From assembly GCF_003054555.1 (NCBI RefSeq), contig NZ_CP026304.1, positions 2,852,001-2,916,000 on the forward strand: a DNA stretch of 64,000 nt. The letters are read 5' to 3'. The notes under the pieces were generated by a model, which was not told the origin of the DNA, did not search any database, and saw only the letters and a program-made list of their open reading frames with translations. Both the position numbers and the translations under genes were made by a program. The stretch is from Streptomyces lunaelactis. Lineage in GTDB: Bacteria; Actinomycetota; Actinomycetes; Streptomycetales; Streptomycetaceae. Positions 7,997 through 22,640 of the stretch are shown one piece after another (position 1 is the first letter of the stretch; each line of letters starts with the position of its first letter).

Positions 7997-8013
7997 GGCC
8001 GGACCCGGGTCTG

Positions 8014-8055
8014 GAGCTCCGCGAACCGGCGGTCCCCCAAGGGTCCATGGAGACC
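8014..8055. other. attL (left junction of the element)
   Basis: On the minus strand the element arm GGTCTCCATGGAC (8055-8043) is followed by the core GAC (8034-8032) and the chromosomal arm CGCCGG...TTCGCGGAGCTC (down to 8014). In the comEA frame the chromosomal side reads RRFAELQTRVRP then TGA, the lost comEA C-terminus. Only GAC is shared with attR, as expected for a serine integrase. Confidence 0.88.
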
Positions 8056-8080
8056 TAAGAGGTAGCGGATTTGCAAGCAA
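8053..8080 (-). promoter_or_regulatory. candidate leftward promoter at the element left end
   Basis: On the minus strand TTGCTT (8080-8075) and TTAGGT (8058-8053) are separated by 16 nt. In the excised circle this would lie directly upstream of attP and int, giving a short leader. In the integrated state it points at comEC, about 50 nt from its GTG. The match is modest and this is an inference from position. Confidence 0.3.
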
Positions 8081-8086
8081 AGAAGC

Positions 8087-8122
8087 GGCCCCATACCGGC
8101 GCGTCAACGCCGATACGGGGCC
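8087..8122. terminator. stem-loop at the element left end
   Basis: GGCCCCATACCGGCG (8087-8101) pairs with CGCCGATACGGGGCC (8108-8122) with one A/C-type mismatch and a 6-nt loop. It may block read-through between the element and the chromosome, or act on the leader of the HNH gene. Confidence 0.6.
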
Positions 8123-8156
8123 TAACGGACACCTGACAGACCAGGAGACCCGCTCA

Positions 8157-8621
8157 ATGAAAGCTATCCCGATCACTGCGCCCATCACAGAGGCGGACAC
8201 GCGTCGCTTCTGGGTGAAGGTCGCACTGCCCAACGAGAACGGCTGTCTGCTCTGGACTGCCGGAAAGACGAGCCGCGGGTACGGAGCCTTCGATCACTGC
8301 GGGCGCAAGGTTGTCGCCCATCGCTTCGCGTACGCAGCCCTGGTCGGCCCGGTCCCTGAGGGGCTGGAGCTGGACCACCTGTGCCGCGACCGGGCCTGCG
8401 TCACCCCGGATCACCTGGAACCTGTCACACACGTGGAGAACGTCCGGCGCGGGGATGCGGGCACGAACCAGGCAGTCAAGACGCACTGCCCGCAGGGTCA
8501 CGAGTACGACGATGCGAACACCTATGCCGCGCCCGGGAACCGGCGGAGGTGCCGCGGCTGCCACCGCGAGCACATGCGCGCCCGTCGTGCCACCCAGCGC
8601 ACGCAGGGCGGTGCGGCATGA
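8157..8621 (+). CDS. HNH endonuclease, phage type
   Basis: Encodes 154 residues with an HNH_3-type fold. The sequence holds GCLLWTAGKTSRGYGAF, VAHRFAYAALVGPVPEG, the ELDHLCRDRACVTPDHLEPVT core with the paired His and Asn-like positions, and a zinc-binding tail CPQGHEYDD...RRRCRGCHREH. Such proteins nick or cut DNA and are common in actinobacterial phages and mobile elements as homing or recombination helpers. ATG at 8157 has AGGAG 8 nt upstream. It is the first gene of a rightward operon and overlaps the ERF gene by ATGA. Confidence 0.88.
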   Translation: MKAIPITAPITEADTRRFWVKVALPNENGCLLWTAGKTSRGYGAFDHCGRKVVAHRFAYAALVGPVPEGLELDHLCRDRACVTPDHLEPVTHVENVRRGDAGTNQAVKTHCPQGHEYDDANTYAAPGNRRRCRGCHREHMRARRATQRTQGGAA

Positions 8622-9325
8622 GCAACACAGATCTCCGTGTCCACACCGCACTGGCGAACGTCATGCGCGACGTCGTCCCGGTCAGCAAGGACCGGGTCAA
8701 CTCCTCGCAGCGCTACAGCTTCCGTGGCATCGACGACCTGATGTCGGCCGTCGCCGGACCGATGCGCGCACACGGCGTGTTCATCCTCCCCGAGGTCATC
8801 GAGAAGACTGCCGAGCGGCACGGCGAGAAGATGACCACCGTCCGCATCACCATGCGGTACCGCGTCTACGGGCCAGCCGGTGACTGCCTGGAAGCCACCG
8901 TGCCCGGGGAAGCGTCCGACTTCGCCGACAAGGCCACCAACAAGGCCATGTCCGCAGCGCTGAAGTACTTCCTGCTGCAGGTACTGATGATCCCCGTGGA
9001 CGGGCGCAGCATCGACGACGGTGATCGCGATCACCCTGAGCCGCCGGCCGCCACGCAGGCTGCGCCCGAGCGGCAACAGCGGACCTCCGCACAGCCCGAG
9101 CTCGCGCCAGACCCCGGCAAGTTGGTGGAGGCGGCCCACAACGCGATGCGCGCTGCCAGGGAGGCGACCGACACGGAGGTCCTCCGGGGCCTGTGGCGCG
9201 AGGCTGACTCCGCCGGACTGATGGGCGTGCCCGTCCAGGTACCGAACGCGGGTGAGATGCCGCTTCAGTCGGTGCTCATCTACCACGGTGCGCGGCTCGC
9301 GGAGACCAAGGCGGTGGCGGTATGA
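8618..9325 (+). CDS. ERF-family single-strand DNA annealing protein
   Basis: Encodes 235 residues. The N-terminal 120 residues match the ERF superfamily: VNSSQRYSFRGIDDLMSAVA, GPMRAHGVFILPEV, YRVYGPAGDCLEATVPGEAS and NKAMSAALKYFLLQ. ERF proteins anneal complementary single strands during phage or plasmid recombination. The C-terminal third is a linker (PPAATQAAPERQQ) and a helical tail. The start ATG overlaps the HNH stop (ATGA). An annealase next to an HNH nuclease suggests a recombination module that may assist circularisation or capture of foreign DNA; that role is inferred. Confidence 0.85.
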   Translation: MSNTDLRVHTALANVMRDVVPVSKDRVNSSQRYSFRGIDDLMSAVAGPMRAHGVFILPEVIEKTAERHGEKMTTVRITMRYRVYGPAGDCLEATVPGEASDFADKATNKAMSAALKYFLLQVLMIPVDGRSIDDGDRDHPEPPAATQAAPERQQRTSAQPELAPDPGKLVEAAHNAMRAAREATDTEVLRGLWREADSAGLMGVPVQVPNAGEMPLQSVLIYHGARLAETKAVAV

Positions 9326-9447
9326 GCGCCAACGACCAGCGGGCGCAGGATGCCCTTGACTACGCCGAGGCACAGGCACAGCGGCAGGCCCAATCGAACC
9401 GTGACGACGCGGACCTCCGTGGCCTGCGGACAGGTGGTGCCCGATGA
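9322..9447 (+). CDS. 41-residue hypothetical peptide
   Basis: Starts with an ATG overlapping the ERF stop (TATGAG) and ends with TGA overlapping the next ATG, so it is kept in a chain of 4-nt overlaps typical of translated operons. The peptide begins MSANDQRAQDALDYAEAQAQ and is a Gln/Ala-rich amphipathic helix. I do not recognise it. Confidence 0.6.
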   Translation: MSANDQRAQDALDYAEAQAQRQAQSNRDDADLRGLRTGGAR

Positions 9448-9686
9448 GCGCATACGACCCGCTGTACGACCCCGCAGTCGACGGCATCGGCTGGACCCCG
9501 CCGCTGGACATCGCCATCACCTGTGCCCGCGAGTCTCTGGCCAAGCACCAGTGCGCCAACATCCACGACCACACCGAAGTGCTCCGAGCCGCCACCGCCC
9601 TGGAGTTCGTACTCCGGGACCTGCTCAACGCGCATGACGAGCTCGATGCGCTTCTCAAGGCGGACGCGGCGGGGGATGGGGCATGA
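9444..9686 (+). CDS. small helical hypothetical protein
   Basis: Encodes 80 residues, MSAYDPLYDPAVDGIGWTPP onwards, with a proline-rich start followed by two acidic helices (LEFVLRDLLNAHDELDALL). It overlaps both neighbours by ATGA. It has no membrane segment or recognisable motif. Its place in the operon between the annealase and the membrane proteins is the only clue to function. Confidence 0.65.
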   Translation: MSAYDPLYDPAVDGIGWTPPLDIAITCARESLAKHQCANIHDHTEVLRAATALEFVLRDLLNAHDELDALLKADAAGDGA

Positions 9687-10480
9687 GCACCAACGACACT
9701 GCCCGCAAGTGGCTGACGCGGCTGTCCCTCGCGGCCGGCATCGCGTTCACCGCGCACGCCGAGTACGACCTGGCCCGCTCTCTCGGAGCGGACCCCGCGA
9801 TCGCGGCCATGCTCCCCGTGGCAGTCGACGCCTACGTGATGGCTGCCCTGCGGTGGTTCAAGGGGTTCGATATCGCACTGTCGCTGACCCTGATGGGTGC
9901 GGCACAGATCGCTGCGCACCTCCTGGACGCCAGGGTGATGGTCGTCAACATCCCGGTGGTTGTCGTGGTGTCACTCCTGGTGCCCATCGCGATCTGGAGG
10001 ACTCACGCACTGGCCCGCGAGGAGCACGCTGAGAGCACCGCAGAGGACACCCCGGCGTCGGTGACCGCACCTTTGGTCACCCGGCCCCTGGGCGGCCCTG
10101 AGGTGTCCGCTGAGGTGTCCGATGAGGTGACCCTTACCGAGGCTCAGGCGCGTCCGGCTCTCGCTCCGGCGCCACCCGTGAAGCCGCTGGTCATCTGCGG
10201 TGACCGCAGGGTGTGGCCCCTGGTGGTCACCCCTCGGGACACCGATGACGAGGTGTCCGATGGGGTGTCCGGTGAGGTGACCGAAAGGCTGCCCGCTGAC
10301 GCAGCCCTTGCGGTCATCGAAAAGTGCTGGGTTAGGGGCACCTCGCCGACCGAAACGGCACGGGTGTCCACCCGGTCCGCCTCGTACGTCAAGAAGGTGT
10401 TCGGCAGGCTCGATGAGGCTCGCGGACCACAGCCCATGCCCGGACAGATGACGCTCGTTCCGGCGGAGGTGGCGTCGTGA
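9683..10480 (+). CDS. DUF2637-like membrane protein with C-terminal HTH (Spd-type)
   Basis: Encodes 265 residues. Residues about 12-110 form four membrane segments with the DUF2637-type pattern AEYDLARSLGADPAIAAML then PVAVDAYVMAAL. These proteins accompany FtsK/TraB translocases on Streptomyces plasmids and AICEs and are linked with spreading of the element in mycelium. Residues about 110-200 are a hydrophilic linker with repeated EVS(A/D/G) units. About residues 205-250 (AALAVIEKCWVRGTSPTETA) look like a helix-turn-helix. A membrane anchor joined to a DNA-binding tail suggests tethering of element DNA at the membrane, which is inference. Confidence 0.75.
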   Translation: MSTNDTARKWLTRLSLAAGIAFTAHAEYDLARSLGADPAIAAMLPVAVDAYVMAALRWFKGFDIALSLTLMGAAQIAAHLLDARVMVVNIPVVVVVSLLVPIAIWRTHALAREEHAESTAEDTPASVTAPLVTRPLGGPEVSAEVSDEVTLTEAQARPALAPAPPVKPLVICGDRRVWPLVVTPRDTDDEVSDGVSGEVTERLPADAALAVIEKCWVRGTSPTETARVSTRSASYVKKVFGRLDEARGPQPMPGQMTLVPAEVAS

Positions 10481-10788
10481 GTGACATCGAGAAGGCTGCC
10501 AGGGATGCCGTGGAGGCTGCGGCGAACAGCGAGAACCTTCGCCTCGTCGCAGCCCTGTTGCAGGCACAGCAGGTCACCCAGCAGGCGCAGCCGCCGGCAT
10601 GCCAGCACGCGCCCGTACAGCAGTCGTCCGGTGGCGCAGCCAAGTGGGTCGGCATCGGTGTCGGAGGCTCCATCTTCCTGCTCACCGTTGCCGTGTCCGC
10701 CGTAGCCGTGGCGATCTCCGCAGTCTCGCTGACCATCTGCGTCCTCGTTCTGCGCTCGATGTGGCGCGACTACCAGAAGGGTCGCTGA
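10477..10788 (+). CDS. Spd-like small membrane protein
   Basis: Encodes 103 residues from a GTG overlapping the previous stop (GTGA). The first half is hydrophilic and Gln/Ala-rich; residues about 52-95 (WVGIGVGGSIFLLTVAVSAV then AISAVSLTICVLVLRSMW) form one long or two short membrane spans. It resembles the spread (Spd) proteins next to TraB in Streptomyces elements, which help pass plasmid DNA between hyphal compartments. Family assignment rests on topology and context rather than motifs. Confidence 0.65.
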   Translation: MSDIEKAARDAVEAAANSENLRLVAALLQAQQVTQQAQPPACQHAPVQQSSGGAAKWVGIGVGGSIFLLTVAVSAVAVAISAVSLTICVLVLRSMWRDYQKGR

Positions 10789-10803
10789 CAGTCCTTCCGT
10801 CCT

Positions 10804-10871
10804 CCACGGCTCGTCCGTGGGGGTGCGGTGGGACTGGGACAGCCCCAGCCCCGTAACGAAGGAGACCCGTC
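10804..10871 (+). promoter_or_regulatory. duplicated hairpin-leader module, copy 1
   Basis: Hairpin CCACGG-ctcgt-CCGTGG (10804-10820), then GGACTGGGACAGCCCC, then CGAAGGAGA as ribosome-binding site before the ATG at 10872. The same arrangement precedes the next gene (11079-11146), so this is a repeated leader cassette. Confidence 0.6.
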
Positions 10872-11066
10872 ATGGGCCTGTTCAGCTACACCCCGAACAC
10901 CCGCCCCCGCTCCGACAGCGAGCTCCGTGACCTGCGTGACGGTGCGGCAGCACTTCGGGCCAGTGCCCGCCGCAACCAGCACGACCCGGTCAAGGCGGCC
11001 CGCGAGCTCAAGGCCGCGCAGCAGAACGAGGCCGACATTCAGGCCGAGCACAAGCGCCGCCGCTGA
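10872..11066 (+). CDS. small basic/helical hypothetical protein
   Basis: Encodes 64 residues starting MGLFSYTPNTRPRSDSELRD, with a charged helix (AARELKAAQQNEADIQAEHK) and a basic KRRR end. The Shine-Dalgarno GAAGGAGA is strong. It sits between two copies of a hairpin leader module. No family is recognised; a small transfer-region accessory protein is possible from context. Confidence 0.65.
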   Translation: MGLFSYTPNTRPRSDSELRDLRDGAAALRASARRNQHDPVKAARELKAAQQNEADIQAEHKRRR

Positions 11067-11078
11067 CGGCTGCCCGAT

Positions 11079-11146
11079 CCGCCCGTCTCGCACGGGCGGT
11101 GAGGGGAGCTGGGACAGTCCGGCCCCGGACACCGAAGGAGAACGCC
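11079..11146 (+). promoter_or_regulatory. duplicated hairpin-leader module, copy 2
   Basis: Hairpin CCGCCCGT-ctcgc-ACGGGCGG (11079-11099), then GGGAGCTGGGACAGTCC, GGCCCCG and CGAAGGAGA before the ATG at 11147. It matches copy 1 in layout, and in sequence outside the stem. Confidence 0.6.
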
Positions 11147-11374
11147 ATGACCGGAACAGCCATCAGTGACCTCTCGACCGGGGACGCAGTCACCCATGCC
11201 GCACCGCCCATCTGCTGTGGCACCACCATGCGCCACCGGCCGTACACCAACACCAGCAGCGTGTGGACCTGCTGGCTCTCCGAGGACACGCAAATCCACG
11301 TCGACCTCGACGGCCGCATCACCGAGCAGCCGTATCTCGACGGCGGATGCGAAGACGAGAAGAAGGCCGGCTGA
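11147..11374 (+). CDS. small Cys-containing hypothetical protein
   Basis: Encodes 75 residues, MTGTAISDLSTGDAVTHAAP onwards, with a CC near residue 24 and a C in SVWTCWLSEDTQIHVDLDG, suggesting a small beta-rich, possibly metal-binding domain. Start ATG has GAAGGAGA 6 nt upstream. The stop TGATG overlaps a possible 12-residue frame (MPYADEPKLTAG, 11374-11412) that I cannot support as a gene. No family recognised. Confidence 0.65.
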   Translation: MTGTAISDLSTGDAVTHAAPPICCGTTMRHRPYTNTSSVWTCWLSEDTQIHVDLDGRITEQPYLDGGCEDEKKAG

Positions 11375-11412
11375 TGCCCTACGCCGACGAACCGAAGCTC
11401 ACCGCCGGCTGA

Positions 11413-11642
11413 TACCCCTCTCGCGGCCCGAGGGACTCCACGGGGTCTCCGAGGGTCAACCGGGGCCTGAAAGGCCGCGAGAGGGGCCACCACGCTCCGT
11501 CACGGTTGTCTCAGCCCTCACGCGCGCGCACGTAGGGGGGCCCCGTGAGCCCGTGAGACAAGTCAGATTCGTAACACAACGTAACGGGCGGCGGCCCATG
11601 CAGGGACCGCCGCCCCGCCCACAGGATCTATGGAGGATCACC
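11413..11642 (+). promoter_or_regulatory. structured control region upstream of the translocase gene
   Basis: Contains a perfect 14-bp stem CCCCTCTCGCGGCC (11415-11428) / GGCCGCGAGAGGGG (11473-11486) around a 44-nt loop, and a separate inverted repeat TTGTCTCA (11506-11513) / TGAGACAA (11554-11561) enclosing CCCTCACG and CGTGAGCCCGTGAG. Next comes GTAACACAACGTAAC. The first could be a terminator for the upstream operon. The second is a good operator candidate for repression of the translocase gene, as KorSA-type control exists on related elements. Nothing codes here. Confidence 0.6.
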
Positions 11643-13319
11643 GTGAGCAGCAACAAGATACGCCGCACAGCCCGTTGGACCGCCAAGCGCTACCGATCCG
11701 AAGCGCTGCGCCGCAGGGAACTGCGCGCGGAGCGCAAGCCGTTGGTCCGCGATGCCCGCCACGCGGTCGCCGCTGCCAAGGCACTGGATCCGTCCGGCAT
11801 CACCAGCGCGGTCCACACCGCAGAGCGTGGACTCAAGACCGCACAGCGCCGGGTACCGGACTCGCTGCCCGTGTTCGCGCTCAAGTCAGCGGCTGGTCTC
11901 GGCACAGCGGCGTACGTCGGTCTGCCCGCCATCCCGGAAGAAGTCTGGGCTTGGGGTGGCAGCGGTGCTGGCACCATGGCGGCCGGCGCTGCTGTGATTG
12001 CCATCGTGCGCAGCAAGCGTGCACCCCGAGGGCTTGAGCCCAGCAAGGAGGAGCGAGCGCTGCTCGCCAGGCTGCAGCCCGAGCACTGGCGCGAGCACTG
12101 CGAGAAGCGGGGCCTGGCGGGAACCCTCACAGGAAAGCCCAAGCTCACCGAATCGGGCATCGTCTGCGCGGTCCGCCTCGATGGCACGTGGACCGCGGCC
12201 AAGCTGAGCAGCTCGGGCGACCACGTGCGCGCGCTGCTCGGCGCCAGGACTGACCTTCGCATCGAGACCAAGGCAGGGAAGAAGGGCGGATGGGCGGAGC
12301 TCACCATTCGGACCCGTTCGGCTGCGGATGGAGACGATCTGCTCTGGACTCCCGAGCGTCGCTCGCTCGGCGTCGACACCGTGACCGGGGAGCAGGTGAC
12401 CGTACCGCTCGGGGAGCGGCTACTCATCGCCGGACGCTCCGGAGCAGGCAAGTCAGTGGCATCCCGACCGCTGCTGTACGACGCATCGGAGGGGGGGAGC
12501 AACGCGCTCGCCATCATCGACCTCAAGCGCGTCGAAGGCCGGTTGTGGGACCACCGCGCCCGCGTCGCATCCACCCCGGATGAGGTGGTCACGCTGGTCG
12601 ATGAGCTCGAGGCGGAAATGCACGACAGGCTCAATGTCCTGCCCAAGGGCCAGGACACGTGGACACCGACCGCTGACCGCCCCCGGATCACGGTCGTTGT
12701 CGACGAGGGGGCGGAGGTGGTGACCGCAGCGAAAGACGCGCTCGAGGGGCTCGAGTCGCTCGCCCGAATGGGCAGGGCCGCATGCATCGACCTGTGGTGG
12801 ATGACCCAGAAGCCGACCATCGGGGACGGGGTACCGAAGCAGATCAGCCCGCAGATCAGTACGTCGATCTGCCTCGCGGTCCGCACGCCGACGGAGGCCA
12901 GGGTTGTGCTCGGGGAGGATGCTCAGGCCAAGGGCTGGAACGCTGATGAGCTCCCGGCGCCCGGGGTGGCGCTGATCCGGGATGGCAAGCGCGGGCCCGA
13001 CCCGGTCCGCGTGCGGTACATGGACAAGGCGGTTGTGATCGCACTGCCCGCGCAGCCCATTTGGTCCCGCGCCATGGACCCGAGCGACAGGAAGCAGTCC
13101 GTCAGCATGGCCAAGGCGCCTGCGCCGGCGCAGGACTCCGAGGGGAAGGTCCTCGCGGCCATCGCGGACGGTGCGGGCCAGGTCCCGACGCTGGTCGAAC
13201 GGACCGGACTGTCGCGGGCCACGGTGAACCGGCTGCTGATCGGACTGCTGGACGCAGGCCAGGTCCGGCGGGCGGACCGTGGACGGTACGCCCTGGCCAC
13301 CCCGGCGGAAGCCATGTAG
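11643..13319 (+). CDS. FtsK/SpoIIIE-type DNA translocase (TraB-like)
   Basis: Encodes 558 residues. A basic N-terminal helix is followed by a hydrophobic stretch at about residues 80-130 (one or two membrane spans), then an FtsK-type motor with Walker A GRSGAGKS (264-271) and Walker B ITVVVDEGAE (349-358), and a C-terminal winged helix (VLAAIADGAGQVPTLVERTG) like the DNA-recognising gamma domain. TraB proteins on Streptomyces plasmids and AICEs move double-stranded DNA between mycelia as hexameric pumps. GTG at 11643 has GGAGG 6 nt upstream. It is the key evidence that the element is self-transmissible. Confidence 0.88.
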   Translation: MSSNKIRRTARWTAKRYRSEALRRRELRAERKPLVRDARHAVAAAKALDPSGITSAVHTAERGLKTAQRRVPDSLPVFALKSAAGLGTAAYVGLPAIPEEVWAWGGSGAGTMAAGAAVIAIVRSKRAPRGLEPSKEERALLARLQPEHWREHCEKRGLAGTLTGKPKLTESGIVCAVRLDGTWTAAKLSSSGDHVRALLGARTDLRIETKAGKKGGWAELTIRTRSAADGDDLLWTPERRSLGVDTVTGEQVTVPLGERLLIAGRSGAGKSVASRPLLYDASEGGSNALAIIDLKRVEGRLWDHRARVASTPDEVVTLVDELEAEMHDRLNVLPKGQDTWTPTADRPRITVVVDEGAEVVTAAKDALEGLESLARMGRAACIDLWWMTQKPTIGDGVPKQISPQISTSICLAVRTPTEARVVLGEDAQAKGWNADELPAPGVALIRDGKRGPDPVRVRYMDKAVVIALPAQPIWSRAMDPSDRKQSVSMAKAPAPAQDSEGKVLAAIADGAGQVPTLVERTGLSRATVNRLLIGLLDAGQVRRADRGRYALATPAEAM

Positions 13320-13330
13320 GCAGACAGTCG

Positions 13331-13361
13331 GAAGCCCCCGTCGACTGTCGACGGGGGCTTC
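13331..13361. terminator. bidirectional terminator
   Basis: GAAGCCCCCGTCGA (13331-13344) and TCGACGGGGGCTTC (13348-13361) form a perfect 14-bp stem with a 3-nt loop between the convergent translocase and Xre genes. Confidence 0.9.
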
Positions 13362-13383
13362 TGGGTGTCCGGGCTGGCGGACG

Positions 13384-13890
13384 TCAGTCATTCCGGGGCG
13401 CGATCTCGTCATAGATCAATTCGTCCGTGAATCCGAGCGCGAACGATGCGTGATCGAGGAAGACGGCTTGGCTCTCAAGGCTCTTGGCCACAAGCTTGTA
13501 AGCGCCGTACTGGTCTCGGAGTGCTGCAATCAACGCACCGCGTGCGCGGTCCAGGGACTGGGGGTTCGCGTCCCCTTTCGGGCTCTCGCCGACAATCGCC
13601 CGCTCGTACTCCCGGTCCGTGAACTCCGCTTCCCCTGGGAGCAGCGCCCCGTGAGAGCCGAGTGCGCCTGGCAGGAGGAGTAGGTCCAGGGACGTCTTCA
13701 ACGCCAGTGCCAGGGATACCAGCTCCGCAGCCGTGAAGGCCCTGCGCCCTTTCTCTGCGGCGGATACCGCCTGGCGGCTCCAGGGCTTGCCCAGATAGGC
13801 CGCCAGTGCTGTCCCGAGCTGCGCCTGAGACAGGCCGGCAGTCTCCCGTAGGCGTGCGACGTTCCGGCCGATGGCCTCTTCAAGTCTCAT
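13384..13890 (-). CDS. Xre-family transcriptional regulator
   Basis: Encodes 168 residues. The N-terminal HTH_3 domain (IGRNVARLRETAGLSQAQLG, then WSRQAVSAAEKGRRAF) occupies residues about 8-65. The C-terminal 100 residues are of unknown fold and may sense a signal or oligomerise. It is transcribed opposite to the rest of the element and faces the excisionase-like gene over a 120-nt gap with a good promoter. This is the usual position of an immunity or transfer repressor. Confidence 0.88.
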   Translation of the reverse strand: MRLEEAIGRNVARLRETAGLSQAQLGTALAAYLGKPWSRQAVSAAEKGRRAFTAAELVSLALALKTSLDLLLLPGALGSHGALLPGEAEFTDREYERAIVGESPKGDANPQSLDRARGALIAALRDQYGAYKLVAKSLESQAVFLDHASFALGFTDELIYDEIAPRND

Positions 13891-13943
13891 GAGTCGTCCC
13901 TCGCATGTCGGTGTCGCGCTCAGCATGACATGGTGGGTTTGCG

Positions 13944-13973
13944 TTGACAAGTGGCCTAGTGCGCTGGGATGAT
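13944..13973 (+). promoter_or_regulatory. candidate promoter for the excisionase-primase operon
   Basis: TTGACA (13944-13949) and GATGAT (13968-13973) are 18 nt apart in the divergent gap with the Xre gene. It would transcribe rightwards into the HTH gene at 14014. An ATG at 13969 falls within the -10 region, which argues against that start. Confidence 0.5.
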
Positions 13974-14013
13974 TGAGGTGACAGTCATTCTCATTCGGAC
14001 AAGAGGCGACGTC

Positions 14014-14223
14014 GTGAAGACCAACCCCGCCCCGGACACGGTCAGGTACCTGACCACGGAACAAGTCGCAGCCCGGTATCACGCTGCGCCGAGCACCGTT
14101 CGCTGCTGGCGCCTCAATGGCTACGGCCCCAAGTTCGTGAAGGTCGGCCGCCGGGCTCTCTACGCCGAAAACGACCTGGCCCGCTTCGAAGCAAGCCAGG
14201 TGCGGAAGCCGGGCACCAAGTGA
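14014..14223 (+). CDS. MerR/HTH_17-type DNA-binding protein, probable excisionase
   Basis: Encodes 69 residues: VKTNPAPDTVRYLTTEQVAA, then RYHAAPSTVRCWRLNGYGPK and VGRRALYAENDLARFEAS. This is the small winged-HTH found in excisionases and recombination directionality factors of actinobacterial elements. The GTG at 14014 has GAGG upstream; an ATG at 13969 would add 15 residues but overlaps the promoter. It may act as a regulator instead; serine integrases usually use unrelated directionality factors. Confidence 0.75.
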   Translation: MKTNPAPDTVRYLTTEQVAARYHAAPSTVRCWRLNGYGPKFVKVGRRALYAENDLARFEASQVRKPGTK

Positions 14224-14369
14224 GCACGCAGCCGACACGCGAGCAAGAGCGCCCCCCGGACTTCTGGCACGGGGGGCCGCTGAGCGACGCACAGGTGCGC
14301 CGCGTCGTCGCACTCCTCGGGCTCACCGCCAGACGAGACCGACAGGGGCCCGACCTGGCCGCGTCATAA
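14220..14369 (+). CDS. 49-residue hypothetical protein
   Basis: Its GTG overlaps the stop of the HTH gene (GTGA), so it is probably translationally coupled. The product begins VSTQPTREQERPPDFWHGGP and ends with a basic helix (VRRVVALLGLTARRDRQ). No known family; a small DNA-binding or integrase-accessory role is possible from context. Confidence 0.6.
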   Translation: MSTQPTREQERPPDFWHGGPLSDAQVRRVVALLGLTARRDRQGPDLAAS

Positions 14370-14372
14370 AAC

Positions 14373-14467
14373 GGCCCTCAGGTGGACGGGAATCCAGCTG
14401 AGGGCCTGTGCCGACACCCCAGAAAACCGAAGAGCCCCCTCCGCCGTAGCAAGCAGTTTGGGGGCTC
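14373..14467 (+). terminator. two tandem hairpins before the primase operon
   Basis: GGCCCTCAG (14373-14381) pairs with CTGAGGGCC (14398-14406); GAGCCCCC (14432-14439) pairs with GGGGGCTC (14460-14467). The pair lies between the 49-residue gene and the next ATG and may terminate or attenuate transcription into the replication gene. Confidence 0.65.
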
Positions 14468-14488
14468 ATCAGAAAGAAGAAATCGACA

Positions 14489-14743
14489 ATGGCAACACTA
14501 GACATCGGGGTCGACACGGTCAAGGCGGCCCCCGTGGCGTACTGCCGGCCACGTCTCAACGACTTCCCCGCAGGGCATGAGATCAGCCTCGTGGTCGAGA
14601 GCTGCCCCCTCTGCCGGGGGCAGCATGTCCACCCCGGAGGGCTGGAGCGACGGCCCTTCTACACAGTCCGGTCGGCCCCCTGCTGCGGGCAGTTCATCCC
14701 TGCCTGCGCCTACCGCCTGGCCCCGGTCGGCGGTGCGGCGTGA
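14489..14743 (+). CDS. small zinc-finger-like protein
   Basis: Encodes 84 residues. The Cys/His set SCPLCRGQHVHPGG near residue 40 and APCCGQFIPAC near residue 65 indicates a treble-clef or zinc-ribbon fold. The stop overlaps the GTG of the primase gene (GTGA), suggesting that the two products act together, perhaps in primer synthesis or loading. Similar small Cys-rich proteins precede primase genes on Streptomyces elements; no named family is claimed. Confidence 0.7.
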   Translation: MATLDIGVDTVKAAPVAYCRPRLNDFPAGHEISLVVESCPLCRGQHVHPGGLERRPFYTVRSAPCCGQFIPACAYRLAPVGGAA

Positions 14744-17445
14744 CTACTGCCGTCGATGCACGTCAGATCGTTGAGGACGCTCTCGCGCAGACCGTAGCCA
14801 TGCGTGGCACGGAATGGGACTGCCCTGTGTGCGGCGGCCCCAGGAAGCTGGGGAAGCTGACGTCCGCCCACCCGACCTGCTTCGTTGCGAGCTGCGATGG
14901 CCACCACAGCAACAGGGGCGCTGACGCCGTACTCGAAGCGATCGGCCTGACCAGGCGAGACCTGCGCGGTGACAGCCGCACAGCCCCCGTCGCTCACGTC
15001 GATGGCCAGACCAGCCTCGAGGAGGCTGCGCCGACGCCGGCGGCCGACAGCGCGCCGGCGTCCGCTCTCAGTCCGGAGCACGAGGCAGAGATCCTGCAAG
15101 GGTCCTCAGTGGACCGTGGTGTCGCAGCCGATCGCGGCTACCGGACGCTGCTCGGGGTCCCTGACGATCGAGCGATGCTCGCCGAACAGGGCTTCAGCCG
15201 TCGACAGACGGAGCGTGAGGACGCCTACCCGGCGCTGTACATCCCTCTCTACCGGGCGACTGGCGAGCAGATCGCCGCGCAGATCAAGCCCAGCGTCCCC
15301 CGGCAGTCCCAGAGCCCGAACGGGAAGGTCCGGGAGCTCAAGTACGAGAATCCGGCAGGGTCCCCCGTGCACGTCGACGTCCCTCCGTTCACCCAGCAGC
15401 ACATCAGGAACACCTCGGTATCCCTGTGGATCACCGAGGGCATCAAAAAGGTCGATGCTCTCGTGTCTAAGGGGCGCGCGGCAGTCGGCATCACCGGGGT
15501 CTACAACTGGCGCAGCAAGCTCGGGACGCTCGGGGATTGGGAGGACATCCCGCTCAAGGACCGCACGATCGTTGTCTGCTTCGACGCCGACGCGGCGAAG
15601 AACATGAATGTCCTGCGGGCTATGAATCGGCTGGGCGCGTGGCTCAAGTCCAAGGGTGCCACCCCGCACTATCTGATCGTCCCGCCCGAGGTGAACGGGA
15701 CGACCGTCAAGGGAGTCGATGACTACTTCGCGGCCGGCGGGACGATGGACGGATTGCAGGCCGCGTCCAGTGCGAGGCAGCCAGACACGTCCACGTCGGA
15801 CGGTACGTACTCCGACGCATTCATGGCAGAGACCATCGCCGATGAGGTCTTCGACGGAAGGTTCTGCTACACCTCCGGCGCCGGATGGCTGCGCTGGGAC
15901 GGCCGTGTGTGGCTGCGCTGCAAGGACGACTCGGATGCAGTCGAAGCGGTCCGCAAGTACGTCAAGAACCGGTTTGCGGACGTCGTGGAGGGCCTGCGGG
16001 CAACCACGGGACAGCCGACCAACGCTAACGCCATAGACGGCTGGAGAAGCCTCCTGTCGTCGTCCCGCATCAGCGCGGTGACCAAGCTCGCCAAAGGCAT
16101 CGTCAAGGTCGACGACGAAGCGCTTGACGCCGACCGCCACCTGCTCAACACCCCCAGCGGCATCGTCGACATGCGCACGCTGGATCTACTGCCACACGAC
16201 CCCGAGCGGTACATGACTCGGATCACCGGCGCGGACTACAACCCACGTGCCACCTCTGCCGGCTGGGACCAGATCCTCACGGCTCTGCCCGACGAGACTC
16301 GCCCGTACCTGCAAGAGGTTCTCGGGCAGGCCATCACCGGATACAGGAACCCACGGGATCAGGCACCCCTCCTGAGCGCGGGCGGCAAGAACGGCAAGTC
16401 GACCATCATGGCTGCCACGTCCAAGGCCATCGGGGACTACGCGGTACTGGTGCCCGACGCGGTTCTGGTCGGAAGCGCCCAGCGGGACGAAACGATGGTC
16501 CTTCGCGGGGCCAGGCTCGCCCTGATAGAGGAGCTCCCGGAGGGGGCGCACCTCAACGCGGTGCAGCTCAAGAAAGCCACGTCACCGCAGATGAGCGGAC
16601 ACCACCTGTACCAGTCGGAGACGACATGGGACACGACGCACAGCCTGGTGGTGACCACCAACTACCGGCCGATCGTCTCGGAGACGGATGAGGGAACCTG
16701 GCGCAGGCTCTCTCTGATCCCCTTCCCGTACACGTTCGTCTCCGACCCCAAAGAGCCGCATGAGCGGCAGGGGGACCCAACGCTGGTCACCAGGGCGGAG
16801 AACGGCGATCCAGAGATCATTGCGGCTGCGCTGCGGTGGCTGGTCGACGGAGCCCATAAGTGGTTCACGGCAGGGATGGTTCTCTCGGATGAGCCGGAGC
16901 AGATCCGGAAAGCCACCAGGGCCTGGCGGGAAGAGACAGACCTGGTCCTCGCCTTCTGGGGCGAGCAACTGATCCCTGACGGAGGCAGTCATGTCGCGAC
17001 GCTGGACATGCGCCAGGCATTCAACGAATGGGCTCAGGAGCGAGGGAACAACCCCCTCGCGGAACGGGTGTTCTTGCAGCGGTTCGGCGATCACTCGCAG
17101 ACGCAGAGCCACCGGGTGGAAAAGGCAGCCAAGTCCCGAGACAAGGAAGGCGCATCTCGGCATGAGCGAGTGCTCGGGGACTTCAATGCTAAGCCGCTAC
17201 CGGTGGCGTACCCCCGATGGGGCGGGGTGCGATTCCGGACAAACGAGGACGATGCGGAGAAGAACGAGGGGGGTGTGCCGGGTGTGCCGACTAAAACCAA
17301 AGTCCCTCTATACGTAGGAACTGAGGAGGTTTCAAAAGAGTCGGCACACCCGGCACACCCCCCGCTCCCAGACCCCGATCACCCGTGCTCTGTCTGCTGG
17401 TCCACTGGCGCCCGCACCCGCTGCTGGTCCACCTGTACTCGCTGA
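14740..17445 (+). CDS. phage/plasmid primase-helicase (zinc finger, Toprim-like, SF3 helicase)
   Basis: Encodes 901 residues. An N-terminal zinc finger (C28, C31, C47, C52) is followed by a DUF3854/Toprim-like domain (LWITEGIKKVDALVSKG at about 228 and the FDADA acidic motif near 280). A D5_N-like region precedes the superfamily-3 helicase with Walker A GGKNGKST near 550, Walker B ALIEELPEG near 593 and motif C LVVTTNYRP near 637. Such proteins prime and unwind DNA to start replication of P4-like phages and plasmids. Typical AICEs use RepSA, RepAM or prim-pol proteins, so this is an uncommon replication module. The C-terminal 60 residues are poorly ordered and Cys/Trp-rich. Confidence 0.88.
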   Translation: MTTAVDARQIVEDALAQTVAMRGTEWDCPVCGGPRKLGKLTSAHPTCFVASCDGHHSNRGADAVLEAIGLTRRDLRGDSRTAPVAHVDGQTSLEEAAPTPAADSAPASALSPEHEAEILQGSSVDRGVAADRGYRTLLGVPDDRAMLAEQGFSRRQTEREDAYPALYIPLYRATGEQIAAQIKPSVPRQSQSPNGKVRELKYENPAGSPVHVDVPPFTQQHIRNTSVSLWITEGIKKVDALVSKGRAAVGITGVYNWRSKLGTLGDWEDIPLKDRTIVVCFDADAAKNMNVLRAMNRLGAWLKSKGATPHYLIVPPEVNGTTVKGVDDYFAAGGTMDGLQAASSARQPDTSTSDGTYSDAFMAETIADEVFDGRFCYTSGAGWLRWDGRVWLRCKDDSDAVEAVRKYVKNRFADVVEGLRATTGQPTNANAIDGWRSLLSSSRISAVTKLAKGIVKVDDEALDADRHLLNTPSGIVDMRTLDLLPHDPERYMTRITGADYNPRATSAGWDQILTALPDETRPYLQEVLGQAITGYRNPRDQAPLLSAGGKNGKSTIMAATSKAIGDYAVLVPDAVLVGSAQRDETMVLRGARLALIEELPEGAHLNAVQLKKATSPQMSGHHLYQSETTWDTTHSLVVTTNYRPIVSETDEGTWRRLSLIPFPYTFVSDPKEPHERQGDPTLVTRAENGDPEIIAAALRWLVDGAHKWFTAGMVLSDEPEQIRKATRAWREETDLVLAFWGEQLIPDGGSHVATLDMRQAFNEWAQERGNNPLAERVFLQRFGDHSQTQSHRVEKAAKSRDKEGASRHERVLGDFNAKPLPVAYPRWGGVRFRTNEDDAEKNEGGVPGVPTKTKVPLYVGTEEVSKESAHPAHPPLPDPDHPCSVCWSTGARTRCWSTCTR

Positions 17446-17499
17446 CCACCACCGGACGGCCGTCCCCGCTGACGGCCGTCCACCCCGAGAGGAACCGAG

Positions 17500-17859
17500 A
17501 TGCCTGACTACCCCTGCCCCAACTTCAAGCAGTCCCACCCGCTTTACGTGGCGTCGGTGTCCCTCAACTACGAGACCGGTGACGTGATCCTGGTCCGTAG
17601 CGGCCTCGTTGTGGGATGGGAGTCCACGGAGCCCGACAGGTCCGAGATGCTCCCTCACGTGCTGTTCACCCACGCGCACGGATCCAGAGGGGCGGCCTCA
17701 GGTACGCCAGTCGAGAGCCCGTTCACCGTGCTTGCCCGGCACGAAAGCAACTCGCGCTGGTTCTTCGCCCCCACGCAGAGTGCGGCTCTCGCGCAGGCTC
17801 GCCAGTACCTCCTGGCCGATCCCTTCTGCACCCGGCTCTCTGTCTGCACCACCCCCTGA
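17500..17859 (+). CDS. hypothetical protein (element cargo)
   Basis: Encodes 119 residues: MPDYPCPNFKQSHPLYVASV, then a beta-rich region (NYETGDVILVRSGLVVGWES) and a C-terminal helix (SAALAQARQYLLADP). The Shine-Dalgarno GAGAGGA is shared in near-identical form by the genes at 17874 and 18567, so these form one expressed run. No family recognised. Confidence 0.7.
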   Translation: MPDYPCPNFKQSHPLYVASVSLNYETGDVILVRSGLVVGWESTEPDRSEMLPHVLFTHAHGSRGAASGTPVESPFTVLARHESNSRWFFAPTQSAALAQARQYLLADPFCTRLSVCTTP

Positions 17860-17873
17860 GAGGAGTTCCGACC

Positions 17874-18263
17874 ATGACCATTCCCGACCTGGATGCCAAG
17901 GCCCAAGCAGTCGTGCTGCTTGCCAGAGGGGTGTCCACCGACGCGGCCGGCGCACAAGTCGGCATGAGCGGCCGGCAGGTCCGCCGCTGGAGCGAGGAAC
18001 CTGAGTTCCGTGCCGACGTGGAGGCTGCGCGCCGAGCAGTCCTTGCCGAGTCGGTGGCCGCTCTCACCGCGGCTGTGCGCGACGCGGTCGACACCCTGCA
18101 CGCCGCTCTCAAGGACAAGTCACCCAGCATCCGTCTGCGCGCAGCCTCCGAGATCGTCAGGGCCCTCCCGCTGCTCGCCTCGCACGCGGAGCTGGAAGCC
18201 CGCGTAGCGGCTCTGGAAGCCACCCAGACCCCCGGGGGTGCTCATGTCGTCCGCGTCGCTTGA
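17874..18263 (+). CDS. HTH protein resembling terminase small subunits
   Basis: Encodes 129 residues. Residues 8-45 (AVVLLARGVSTDAAGAQVGM then SGRQVRRWSEEPEFRADV) are a homeodomain-like helix-turn-helix as found in phage terminase small subunits and transposase leaders. The remainder is a helical bundle (AARRAVLAESVAALTAAVRD, then LEARVAALEAT). A terminase small subunit without a large subunit would be a phage-satellite trait; the match here is to the general fold only. ATG follows GAGAGGAG. Confidence 0.65.
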   Translation: MTIPDLDAKAQAVVLLARGVSTDAAGAQVGMSGRQVRRWSEEPEFRADVEAARRAVLAESVAALTAAVRDAVDTLHAALKDKSPSIRLRAASEIVRALPLLASHAELEARVAALEATQTPGGAHVVRVA

Positions 18264-18570
18264 CGCACGCCTACGGCGCCTGGAGCAGCAGCTCGCTCCG
18301 CCGGCCGACGCCGACGAGGCCGCCCGCATGGAAGGTGCGGCCCGCGTGGTGGATCTGTTGATGCCACGCCTTGATGCCGGAGAAACCCTCGCCGAAATAC
18401 TGCTGCACCAGCGCACTGGTGAGCCGCTGCCACCGATGACCACCGGGGGACCGGCCTGGGCAACGGAATACCGGTTCACGGTCTGGTTCATCCATGTCGG
18501 CGCCGGACACGAGACCACGGGTCCCGATGGCATCTGCGTCACCTGCAACTCTGAGAGGAACTCCCCGTGA
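18244..18570 (+). CDS. hypothetical protein with N-terminal coiled coil
   Basis: Encodes 108 residues starting MSSASLDARLRRLEQQLAPP, a short coiled coil also seen at the end of the preceding protein (LEARVAALEAT). The middle is acidic and helical, and the end holds GICVTCNSE. It overlaps the previous gene by 20 nt and ends with TGA inside the next GTG/ATG. A GTG 6 nt upstream is an alternative start. The shared coiled-coil pattern hints at interaction with the HTH protein. Confidence 0.6.
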   Translation: MSSASLDARLRRLEQQLAPPADADEAARMEGAARVVDLLMPRLDAGETLAEILLHQRTGEPLPPMTTGGPAWATEYRFTVWFIHVGAGHETTGPDGICVTCNSERNSP

Positions 18571-19547
18571 TGTCTCGTAAGGACCGCAAGAACCGACGTA
18601 CGGACAACCCGCCGGCCGCAGCCACGAACCTGCCCCCGGACACCTCCGGGGAGCTGGACGCCCTGCGCGAACGGCTCGACCGTATGGAGAAGGACCAGGC
18701 CCCCCGGGACGCGTGGGCCATGGTGGCGGACCGTCACCGCATCGAGCGGGAGCGCGAGATCGCAGCCCATACCAGGGCCAACCCGGACACGCCGTGCCGG
18801 GCTTGCGGGGACGCTGATGCTGTCCAGCGTCGCCTGGTCCCCGCAGAGATCTTCGGGACTTCTGCCTGGATCTGCACCGCCTGCGTCAAGGCATGCGTCC
18901 CTGGGTGGGGCACCCAGACCACCAGGGCCCTCAACCGCAGCCAGGCGATCGATCGTCTCGCCTGCCTGGCTGTCGGCATGGATGCGCCTACGGCCAGCTT
19001 CGCGGCCCTGGCCGGCCGCTACGGGCTCCGGCTGGTCCTCGCTCAGGACGCACCCGGCGCCGGTGACGGCACGCCGTGGTCGCACCTCGGGGACCTCGCT
19101 CAGTGGCGCGAGGCGGGCATCAAGGCCACCCGCAGGAGCGCAGCGGGCTTCGGCGCGTTCCCCGCGGTCGACCACCGCACGCTGCTCGCACCCCGGGAGA
19201 CGGAGCTGCGCCGGGTCTGGGACCCGGAGCTTGGCGCCGCTCGCCTGGGGCCCGTAGAGGTGCCCCCGGAGCCGCCTACGGCTGAGGAGCTCGCTGCGCG
19301 ACTGTGCGCCGAAGAGATCGCGATCGAGGCTGCGCTCAAGGATCAGGTCCGCCAGGCCAGGGAGCAGGCTGAGCAGGCCGATAAGGATGCCGAGCGCACC
19401 CGCATCGCCAGGGAGTACCGCGCGGCCGCCCGGGCGCAGGAGAAGCTGTTCCAGGAAGAGCGCCACAAGCTGCGTGAGGCGCGGCGAGCGGTATACCGGG
19501 CGGCAGACACCAAGGTCGTCTTCAACGCGATCGTGGGAGGCATCTGA
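18567..19547 (+). CDS. zinc-finger and coiled-coil hypothetical protein
   Basis: Encodes 326 residues (GTG 18567, or the ATG at 18570). It begins with a Lys/Arg-rich tail, then a coiled coil (GELDALRERLDRMEKDQ), a zinc-binding pair CRACGDAD and CTACVKACVPG near residues 72-112, a central domain of unknown fold, and a long charged coiled coil from residue 230 (KDQVRQAREQAEQADKDAER). It overlaps its neighbours at both ends. No family recognised; the architecture suits a DNA-bound scaffold. Confidence 0.65.
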   Translation: MMSRKDRKNRRTDNPPAAATNLPPDTSGELDALRERLDRMEKDQAPRDAWAMVADRHRIEREREIAAHTRANPDTPCRACGDADAVQRRLVPAEIFGTSAWICTACVKACVPGWGTQTTRALNRSQAIDRLACLAVGMDAPTASFAALAGRYGLRLVLAQDAPGAGDGTPWSHLGDLAQWREAGIKATRRSAAGFGAFPAVDHRTLLAPRETELRRVWDPELGAARLGPVEVPPEPPTAEELAARLCAEEIAIEAALKDQVRQAREQAEQADKDAERTRIAREYRAAARAQEKLFQEERHKLREARRAVYRAADTKVVFNAIVGGI

Positions 19548-19963
19548 TGGCGACCGACCTCAAGGCATGGGGACGCCTGGTGCTCGACGCTGAGAGCCGC
19601 GGCATGTCCACGAATCAGGCGTGCAAGTGGGCTACCGAGACTCTGACTCCGGTACGGCGTACCAAGGCTGACCCTGCAGTGCAGCGGGCCCGGACGGCTG
19701 TGCAGCCGTCGAAGCAGATGCAGCCCGGACGGGGCGAGACAGTGACGTACTCGATGAACCCCGTGAGGGGACTCCCGAGCATCGTCACGCGTACCAAGGC
19801 TGATCCTGCTGCCTTCGCGGCCCGTGCGGCTGCTGTGAAGCAGGCTCGGGAGCGGTGGCGGGATGCAGAGAAGTCGTTCGCGCGGCTGGACACCCGGATC
19901 GAGCAGCTAAGGGAGTGGGAGGCGGGTTGGCGGTCGGCCCTTGCAGCCGGCTACCTGTTCTGA
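19547..19963 (+). CDS. hypothetical protein with an internal repeat
   Basis: Encodes 138 residues. The motif RTKADPA occurs twice (near residues 38 and 82), each followed by an Ala/Arg-rich helix, so the protein contains a diverged internal duplication. The C-terminal half is a coiled coil (KQARERWRDAEKSFARLDTR). The ATG overlaps the previous stop (TGATGG). It is the last gene of the rightward run, ahead of a strong terminator. Function unknown. Confidence 0.65.
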   Translation: MATDLKAWGRLVLDAESRGMSTNQACKWATETLTPVRRTKADPAVQRARTAVQPSKQMQPGRGETVTYSMNPVRGLPSIVTRTKADPAAFAARAAAVKQARERWRDAEKSFARLDTRIEQLREWEAGWRSALAAGYLF

Positions 19964-19976
19964 CATCCCGGCACAC

Positions 19977-20011
19977 GAGAGCCCCCATCGACGTGAGCGA
20001 CGGGGGCTCTC
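19977..20011. terminator. bidirectional terminator
   Basis: GAGAGCCCCC (19977-19986) pairs with GGGGGCTCTC (20002-20011), with extra pairing inside, between the rightward element genes and the leftward integrase. Confidence 0.88.
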
Positions 20012-20026
20012 TACTGCTCCGGAGTC

Positions 20027-21475
20027 TCAGGCGGACGCAGGGGGCTGCTCCCCCGCCTCGATGGGCACGAGACGCGCAGGGTTGAACTTGTTGCCCTTGG
20101 ACCGGTCGTGCGGCATCACCCGCCACATGCCACCCAACGCAATGACGACTTCCCGCTTGTCGGCAGGAGTGAGCGCATGCCACCCCTCGTGGATGTCCCC
20201 CGCGAGCAGCCTGCGCAGCACCCGCGGGGCACGGGAGGTGACGAACGCCCGGGAGTCCTTCACGCGCGCCTCGATCAGTGACCTGGCCTCGCGGTACTCC
20301 GCGAGACTGACCTGCTTGCGGGCCCACATACCCGCAAGCTCTTTCAGCTGCTGCTCGTCCTCCGCCAGGGAGCGCCGTGCGTCGTCGGTCGCCTCAGTCG
20401 TGGCCGCGTGCCGGAGCTGTTCAAGGACTTGCGGTCCCGATAGGCCCTCGAGAACACGCCGTTCGATCTCTGCCTCTACCGGCTCAGCCTTGATCGCGAT
20501 CTTCCCGCAGCCGCCCCGGGGAGTGGCGCACCAGTAGCGCACGCCGTTGTTGCCCTGCGCGCCGGGCATGGTCCGCCCGCACTTCGAGCAGACCAGGACC
20601 CCGGTAAGCCACCGCTGCAGCGTCAAGTCAACATTCCTCACTCGCCCTGCCAACCGGGCGCATACGTCCTCCCATTGGCCCCTGTCCAGGATAGGAGGCC
20701 ACACGGCGTCCCCTACGACGTCCCCGCGGTGCGCGCGCAGGCCGGCCACCCGGGGCTTGGTGACGATCGACTTCACGCTTCGGGAGTTCCACGGGGCCCC
20801 GGTGACGGTAGGTACCTCCCTGGCCTGCAAGTCAGCCGCAATGGCGTTCAGGGACTCGTCGTCCAGGATGCGGCCGGCTATCTCCCGGACGATCTCCGCC
20901 TCTTCGGGGACGATCTCCAGGTTCCTTACGTCATAGCCGTACCCGCGAAACCCTCCCCCGCCGGGCTTGCCTGCTGCTGCGAGCTCCTCATGCTTACGGG
21001 CGACGCGGCGTCCCGTGTCGCTACTGGACTTGTTGGCCATGACCGTCATCACCCGCGCCATGGCAATGTCGCTCGAGTTCGCCAGGCGCAGCGACCCCGA
21101 GACGCTCTCCACGGGGAGGTGCGGGTAGCCGGACTGCACCACGTCCACGAGGTCTTCCAGGTCCCTCATATCGCGCGCAACGCGGTCAAGGTCGTAGGCG
21201 ATGAGTCCGTCAAATTCGCCCGACGCAAGACCGTCCAGGACGTACCGGAATCGCGGCCGGACCGTGCGCAGGACGGATGTTCCGTCCGGCAGCTTGATGC
21301 GCTTGCGCTTGTACGCGCTGGTGTCGTTCTCGGTGACGACTTGCGCGACTGTCCATCCGAGACGCTGGGCAAGGCTTCGGCAGTCCTCTTCCTGCCGGCC
21401 TACACCCTGGGCATCTCCGGCTTTGTCATCGCTGATCCGGACGAGAATCACGGCCCTTGAAGGAGTCATGTTCAT
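20027..21475 (-). CDS. int: large serine recombinase (integrase)
   Basis: Encodes 482 residues. The resolvase domain has the nucleophile S15 in VILVRISDD and the DGLIAYDLDRVARDMRDLED helix near 90-110. The recombinase domain spans about 170-280 (GGGGFRGYGYDVRN, NSRSVKSIVTKPRVAGLRAH). A zinc ribbon uses C296, C299, C316 and C323. A coiled coil follows near 340-400. The family catalyses directional attP x attB recombination. The start lies 2 nt from the attP arm and 3 nt after the truncated comEA stop, so in the integrated state it is in the comEA transcription unit. No good Shine-Dalgarno is seen, so coupling to comEA translation or another start (ATG at 21469) is possible. Confidence 0.95.
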   Translation of the reverse strand: MNMTPSRAVILVRISDDKAGDAQGVGRQEEDCRSLAQRLGWTVAQVVTENDTSAYKRKRIKLPDGTSVLRTVRPRFRYVLDGLASGEFDGLIAYDLDRVARDMRDLEDLVDVVQSGYPHLPVESVSGSLRLANSSDIAMARVMTVMANKSSSDTGRRVARKHEELAAAGKPGGGGFRGYGYDVRNLEIVPEEAEIVREIAGRILDDESLNAIAADLQAREVPTVTGAPWNSRSVKSIVTKPRVAGLRAHRGDVVGDAVWPPILDRGQWEDVCARLAGRVRNVDLTLQRWLTGVLVCSKCGRTMPGAQGNNGVRYWCATPRGGCGKIAIKAEPVEAEIERRVLEGLSGPQVLEQLRHAATTEATDDARRSLAEDEQQLKELAGMWARKQVSLAEYREARSLIEARVKDSRAFVTSRAPRVLRRLLAGDIHEGWHALTPADKREVVIALGGMWRVMPHDRSKGNKFNPARLVPIEAGEQPPASA

Positions 21476-21476
21476 A

Positions 21477-21526
21477 GGTTACCATCGACACATCGCGTCA
21501 CCAATTCCGTTTACTTCGCGGAGTTC
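21477..21526. other. attR (right junction of the element)
   Basis: On the minus strand the chromosomal arm GAACTCCGCGAA (21526-21515) leads through ...ATTGGT to core GAC (21499-21497), then element sequence GCGATGT and the arm GTCGATGGTAACC (21489-21477). The two element arms match at 10 of 13 positions as inverted repeats and are each 9 nt from the G|A centre, so attP is a 44-bp imperfect palindrome. Confidence 0.88.
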
Positions 21527-22480: not shown

Positions 22481-22640
22481 GTCACAGGACGGTAGGCACA
22501 TCCGTCCGACCTCGCTGAGCAGGCCACATTTCCGTGGACAGCCGCCCCGATGTGGACAACTCGCTCACCCTCAAAGGTGATTGGCGCGCCGCTCAGCAGC
22601 CACACCGCCCATCAGCCGCGCCGCTCAGCAGCAACGCCAC

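Follow-up and report, generated by a model that had tools for sequence, protein, structure and literature searches.

A 13.5-kb integrated element of Streptomyces lunaelactis whose large serine integrase very probably uses the second helix-hairpin-helix of comEA as its attachment site

The 64,000-nucleotide stretch of Streptomyces lunaelactis DNA analyzed here (contig NZ_CP026304.1, positions 2,852,001 to 2,916,000; hereafter the window, to which all coordinates refer) contains an integrated element that divides the competence gene comEA and separates it from comEC. It is very probable that this 13.5-kb insertion is akin to the actinomycete integrative and conjugative elements (AICEs), and that it carries a large serine integrase for which the second helix-hairpin-helix of comEA serves as bacterial attachment site (attB). 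The element occupies 8033..21497 (13,465 bp from crossover to crossover, without an assigned strand), as defined by comparison of its attachment (att) sites with those of five sister elements and with empty sites in relatives. On the minus strand the order is comEA, integrase, element body, comEC. The site, its core, the association of one integrase clade with this site, and the truncation of ComEA are all read from sequence comparison.

The 5′ part of comEA (21479..22501, minus strand) is a 340-aa open reading frame (ORF) that ends in an element-encoded tail, AMCRW. The 3′ remnant (7993..8034, minus strand), recognized by comparison with 30 intact relatives, encodes RRFAELQTRVRP and a stop and is severed from the gene. 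Beyond it lies comEC (5363..7996, minus strand), which encodes an 877-aa protein of the Pfam family Competence (PF03772). Joining the flanks at 8033 and 21498 yields a single open comEA frame ending GIGD-RRFAELQTRVRP; the C-terminus of the rejoined frame reads ...LREVNGIGDRRFAELQTRVRP, that is, VNGIGDRRFAELQTRVRP, and its TGA stop overlaps the GTG start of comEC (7996..5363) as GTGA. A preliminary description of the window had proposed that the flanks restore one comEA frame with this overlap, and the joined sequence agrees.

The integrase (20027..21475, minus strand; 482 aa) starts directly beside attR and has the domain set of large serine integrases, with N-terminal resolvase, recombinase and zinc-ribbon domains (Resolvase, Recombinase and Zn_ribbon_recom in Pfam). 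It matches the PHROGs integrase family phrog_95 (9e-77) and solved structures of YokA and of an integrase. Close relatives are few. In overlapping samples of genus, family and class genomes, three of 392 genus genomes match at E <= 1e-60, the host genome counted, which accords with the preliminary suggestion that use of this target is uncommon. The family sample gives 53 matches among 394 genomes at E <= 1e-40, with identities of at least 64% only in G000, G527, G292, G510 and G407; the class sample gives three among 394 at E <= 1e-90, the newcomer being G1008, with 47% identity over part of the protein. Five sister elements were found, three in the same genus (G292, G091, G527) and two in two other genera (G510, G407). 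Each has the truncated comEA (comEA′) before the integrase gene (int) and comEC at the far end, interrupted at the codon seen in the window, so that in all six genomes with integrases of at least 60% identity int separates comEA′ from comEC, each time at this codon. The preliminary description had proposed looking for related integrases at this codon, and five further elements are the yield. In a tree of 32 sequences, the six comEA integrases form one clade (support 99/98) with G1008 beside it; they are 60-70% identical to one another and at most 49% identical to the others. Horizontal spread of the clade is likely, since hosts of other genera fall within it.

Outside this clade, the association with comEA was not recovered. 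Among 25 loci drawn from 61 distant family-sample matches, none had comEA within about 1.5 kb of flank, and no comEA lies within 19 kb of flank around the G1008 integrase, which comes from another family. A tblastn search of phage records found no close relative and so traced no phage origin for the integrase: all 438 matching records fall below 60% identity, and the best 20 of the 438 reach at most 31%. A scan of genome contigs with the integrase gave identities of 20-32% throughout the best 80 of 366 relatives and was left unused.

Sites without the element are consistent with these boundaries. The host genome and 20 relatives, 12 of the same genus and eight of the same order, were searched with a 217-nt joined site. 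Ten of the 12 other genomes of the genus gave one continuous alignment over the junction, so that the search for uninterrupted comEA suggested in the preliminary description succeeded in every same-genus genome that matched (10 of 10); two had no match, nor did any of the eight same-order genomes. The host genome matched in two separate segments (1-90 and 85-217). Among the 392 genus genomes, 369 have the helix-hairpin-helix end of comEA and 368 the 23-aa comEA tail (E <= 0.5), which fits the earlier claim of a conserved target; the host genome has no tail match, and G091 and G292 each have two weak ones (best E 0.0067 and 0.0022). A single weak match (E > 1e-3), reflecting either a diverged tail or an interruption, was observed in 15 other genomes (for example, G037, G121, G135, G145, G345 and G367), and most genomes without any tail match are assembled in hundreds of contigs. 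In 30 comEA loci, taken from the top of the ranking of 369 genomes and hence biased toward similar tails, the gene is uninterrupted throughout, with GIG[DE] followed by the tail. Of the encoded proteins, 28 end in VRP, one in VRL and one in VGP; the stop context is ATGA in 29 loci and GTGA in the remaining one. The attB core falls on highly conserved comEA codons.

That the 3′ end of comEA is an integrase-specific attB, as first proposed in the preliminary description, is thus supported by six insertions that share one codon and one orientation, by the single integrase clade, and by the empty sites in relatives. The insertion could in principle be an artefact of assembly, or its ends alike by chance. 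We found no point in favor of this reading; six insertions in six assemblies, each on one contig, and the matching empty sites make it exceedingly improbable.

The att sites define the crossover to the base. Both attL, on the comEC side (8008..8059, minus strand), and attR, on the comEA side (21473..21524, minus strand), contain the crossover dinucleotide GA (TC on the plus strand), at 8033-8034 and 21498-21499, respectively. Two of the six elements, that of the window (G, T) and G091 (C, T), have unlike bases before GA in attL and attR, and five of six, namely all the sisters, have unlike bases after it (C vs T or G). Because the bases on both sides differ in G091, GA is there the whole shared core without further assumption. 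The core had earlier been given as GAC; its GA part stands, and the trinucleotide was rejected in the comparison with the five sisters, the third base being unshared in five of six elements. All six elements have non-identical phage-type (attP) and bacterial sites around a short central core, GA, as is the case for large serine integrases.

The axis of the attP inverted repeat also sits on GA (TCGGC-GA-TCCGA in G292, G091 and G527) and provides independent support for this core. The 13-nt arms previously described, with 10 of 13 positions matching, were reproduced. When the 25 positions to either side of GA are paired, 17 prove complementary in the window element (null fraction 5e-5, against 20,000 random pairs of GA half-sites drawn from the same element); the sisters have 15 (G292, 0.0012), 10 (G091, 0.11), 16 (G527, 1e-4), 8 (G510, 0.41) and 18 (G407, 0 of 20,000). 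On both arms of attP, a motif of AGGT type is found at a distance of exactly 18 nt from GA, reading AGGT in nine of 12 half-sites, the exceptions being AGAT in both halves of G292 and GGGG in one half of G510. The attB counterpart lies 5 bp further in on the left arm (AGGT in three of six, one change in the other three) and 4 bp further in on the right (AGGT in four, AGAT and AGCT in the rest). A model of attP and attB binding predicts that the zinc-ribbon motif is displaced 5 bp inward in attB relative to attP (PMC3783163), and the left-arm shift agrees with it.

An element-encoded stop follows the GIG of ComEA′ by three to six codons in all six elements, and in five of them, G527 being the exception, it lies within about 40 nt of int. 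In four of six, this in-frame stop is the attP arm itself (TAACCTA or TAATCTA), just 5′ of int; on the switching hypothesis considered below, int would consequently be read from the comEA operon when the element is integrated. In the window, TAACCTA at 21473-21490 gives the truncated comEA its stop. The hexamer TAACCT also stands 6-7 nt before the int ATG in four of the six elements (window, G292, G510 and G407), a hint of a leaderless int start with the attP arm as its −10 element; a scan of the arm upstream of int for consensus promoters found none.

At the opposite end of the element, a terminator-like hairpin of 16 pairs (8087..8122, minus strand) faces comEC, 53 nt inside the element boundary. 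Six such hairpins were found in the region against 4.6 expected in shuffled sequence, and the stem at 8122-8087 is by far the longest. Similar hairpins were seen by eye near the element ends in G292 and G510. The leader before the first operon of the element (window 8087-8156; also in L084 and L149, near the element ends) recurs: it begins with a long hairpin, GGCCCC...GGGGCC, and continues with TAACGGA(T)CACCTGAC...ACCAGGAG ahead of the first start codon. This pattern was matched in the window and in G292 and, by eye and with changes, seen in G510 and G407; it may represent an origin, an attenuator or a regulatory site.

These observations suggest a mechanism of the kind expected for serine integrases. 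Integrase dimers would bind attP on the circular element and attB within the comEA codons LREVNGIGD|RRFAEL, cut at the central GA, and exchange strands to produce attL and attR. Because GA is not palindromic, the orientation would be fixed, and int would come to lie behind the truncated comEA in the same direction. The chromosome is left with a ComEA lacking its last 12 residues, and between comEC and the rest of its operon now stand 13.5 kb and a terminator-like hairpin. Uptake that depends on ComEA and ComEC, if the host has any, would probably be off until excision. Integrase activity, excision and conjugation, like this loss of uptake, are what we infer.

The insertion removes the end of the second helix-hairpin-helix of ComEA. 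Integrated ComEA matches the domain HHH_3 only to position 55 of 65, and with the joined tail the match reaches 65. In an alignment with a solved ComE operon protein 1 (8dfk, ...vsGIGEKSFEKIK), which appears to be the ComEA of Bacillus subtilis, the cut falls just before lysines that fit K193, K197 and K199 by spacing. In B. subtilis ComEA, K199A and K164A lower transformation by more than 2 logs, and K193A and K197A by 2-4 fold (PMC9747964). Further, comEC has lost its overlap with comEA and sits behind the 16-pair hairpin. Since ComEA is truncated and comEC uncoupled, DNA uptake through the comEA-comEC operon is probably lost in the integrated state. In Kitasatospora viridifaciens, walled cells took up no DNA, and deletion of comEA/comEC left uptake by L-forms unchanged (PMC9500057).

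Several points weigh against the interpretation developed so far. No directionality factor was identified for the element. Over 25 positions, two of the six attP sites, those of G091 (P 0.11) and G510 (P 0.41), lack significant symmetry; the exact AGGT occurs in only three of six attB left arms, and the right-arm shift is 4 bp, not 5. The published K. viridifaciens data, from a related organism, also leave the functional cost of losing ComEA and ComEC doubtful (PMC9500057).

The remaining genes bear on what kind of element carries the integrase. In addition to the site-specific integrase, the window element encodes a FtsK/SpoIIIE (TraB-like) translocase (11166..13319, plus strand; 717 aa, with C-terminal winged-helix matches; PF01580 5.1e-07, phrog_17958 1.8e-93), and these are AICE traits. 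Pfam and PHROGs also identify an HNH endonuclease (8157..8621, plus strand), an ERF single-strand annealing protein (8618..9325, plus strand), and a primase-helicase of the D5_N/P4 family (14740..17445, plus strand; 901 aa). Replication modules of AICEs are of the RepSA, RepAM or Prim-Pol type; in the window element this primase is a candidate replication gene, and none of the Rep families that PMC3218068 lists was found among the window proteins scanned. The G091 sister carries a Prim-Pol. Two further proteins of 265 and 103 aa (9683..10788, plus strand) have no Pfam family and have blastp relatives in G292 and G091. Rfam gave only two matches, both to microRNA families within the primase gene, which were dismissed as far below the gathering score.

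Repeats that serve the translocase (clt) are a feature of AICEs. A k-mer scan found no 8-10-mer with three copies in <150 bp, a setting narrowly too strict for the arrays that are present. The sequence GGTGTCCG occurs four times at 10102-10271, within two arrays of 12-nt period 5′ of the FtsK gene. These arrays (GAGGTGTCCG-type, at 10098-10129 and 10250-10284) lie inside the 265-aa ORF and could be either coding repeats or a clt- or iteron-like site.

The sister elements vary widely in size (G527 11.7, G292 16.1, G091 24.5, G510 25.3 and G407 28.4 kb) and content. By blastp (E <= 1e-5) against mechanically called ORFs, from which small genes may be missing, the integrase is common to all five sisters and the window, and the 265-aa/103-aa pair recurs in G292 and G091; there are two weak matches to window proteins, a primase in G292 (23%) and a translocase in G407 (25%). 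Selected proteins of each sister were scanned for families. FtsK_SpoIIIE exceeds the Pfam cut-off in the window, G292, G510 and G407 and narrowly misses it in G091, whose protein PHROGs too classes as FtsK/SpoIIIE-like; no FtsK was found among the four G527 proteins scanned with Pfam. G527 (L115 6051-13158) encodes a phage head-maturation protease together with two proteins that resemble, respectively, LysM/endolysins and AAA primase-helicases, and is possibly a phage satellite or remnant that uses the comEA integrase. G407 (L117 5146-6150) also encodes a tyrosine integrase (PF00589, 4.1e-23) and with this second integrase may be a composite of two elements. Five elements with a FtsK/TraB-like protein thus look like AICEs and one has phage-like genes, which indicates that the comEA-specific integration module occurs on different kinds of element.

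The window element might itself be a prophage or phage satellite. The ERF, HNH and P4-type primase families all belong to the PHROGs phage library, and the G527 sister pairs a head-maturation protease with an endolysin-like LysM protein. However, no capsid or tail family appeared among the ten window proteins scanned with PHROGs (from 16 predicted and a few more ORFs), and the sole terminase match lands on the FtsK-like protein. This reading is very unlikely, and an AICE-like element is preferred.

Why such a lineage should use comEA is less clear-cut. One reading holds that the site is a neutral safe harbor, in which comEA serves only as conserved GIG helix-hairpin-helix DNA in a dispensable gene, with no selection related to competence. 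The position of the attB core on highly conserved codons and the wide occurrence of the gene (369 of 392 genus genomes) are consistent with this, as is the precedent of elements with variable content at one coding site in SCO2606-like genes (PMC5311408); against it, insertion costs ComEA its C-terminus in six of six elements and the gene end is not restored. On balance, we lean slightly toward this reading. A second reading, by analogy, is that the clade may persist because its target disables the uptake operon and so guards the element against removal by recombination with imported DNA. Integrases of 60-70% identity, on elements of different types and in different genera, have all kept to insertion into the coding part of a competence gene; the cut in ComEA precedes positions important in B. 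subtilis, and comEC lies behind a hairpin. Natural transformation, however, is not known in walled Streptomyces. Such a role has been argued for elements in comYC, comK, comFA and comM (PMC4774983), but walled K. viridifaciens showed no uptake (PMC9500057), this integrase occupies only three of 392 genus genomes, and serine integrases also use other coding genes, such as the phiJoe/SCO2603 site (PMC5311408). A blocking role is therefore doubtful, though possible, and a neutral site is somewhat more likely than an anti-transformation weapon. It is unlikely, if conceivable, that a specialized lineage of integrases, exchanged among AICE-like and phage-like elements in Streptomyces and its family, switches comEA-comEC off on integration and restores it on excision.

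Should such switching occur, the persistence of the lineage would be evidence of natural DNA uptake through ComEA and ComEC in streptomycetes. Should the element instead block uptake, conflict over DNA uptake within genomes would extend to streptomycetes, and the role of ComEA and ComEC could be tested by comparing occupied with cured strains. The six elements amount to a naturally occurring series of comEA/comEC disruptions spread over a family. The analysis also provides a base-exact attB in a gene of nearly all sampled genus genomes, which makes it a candidate orthogonal integration site.

The nearest parallels come from several bodies of work. AICEs likewise combine an integrase and a FtsK/TraB-like translocase with a replication protein, for which the primase is the candidate here (PMC3218068, PMC9513070), and exchange of modules among Streptomyces AICEs has been described (PMC9513070). 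They mostly use tyrosine integrases and tRNA sites, with serine recombinases in 19 of 144 (PMC3218068), whereas the window element has a serine integrase and comEA. The phiJoe/SCO2603 elements, for which an ancestral attB was rebuilt by the same approach, also share a serine-integrase type, very different cargo and a conserved coding site near the 3′ end of a gene; they target a SCO2606-like gene of the radical SAM kind, and their core is predicted to be GG, whereas here the target is comEA, the core is GA and the end of a domain is lost (PMC5311408). By target, the window element does not belong with them. With integrases of the A118/LI type it shares the att logic of a pseudo-palindromic attP, a central dinucleotide and a zinc-ribbon motif 5 bp inward in attB, and it differs in that the motif of its clade, (T)AGGT, is known from sequence only and that the right arm is shifted by 4 bp (PMC3783163).

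Elements that disrupt competence genes form a further comparison. Integrases steer elements into comYC, comK, comFA and comM, a pneumococcal comEC insertion is also described (PMC4774983), and interruption of comM by mobile elements has been reported separately (PMC11472951). As in those systems, similar integrases here enter the coding sequence of one DNA-uptake gene across species and genera; the hosts there do transform, and neither comEA nor actinobacteria are named in the pertinent passages of PMC4774983. The earlier suggestion that the target is new accords with a search of the openly accessible literature, in which comEA was not found as a mobile-element target in actinobacteria, the AICE site tables of PMC3218068 and PMC9513070 lying outside its coverage. 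Both serine-integrase elements in coding genes of Streptomyces and mobile elements that interrupt competence genes have precedents; comEA is conserved and appears to be new among the targets of this familiar kind of recombinase.

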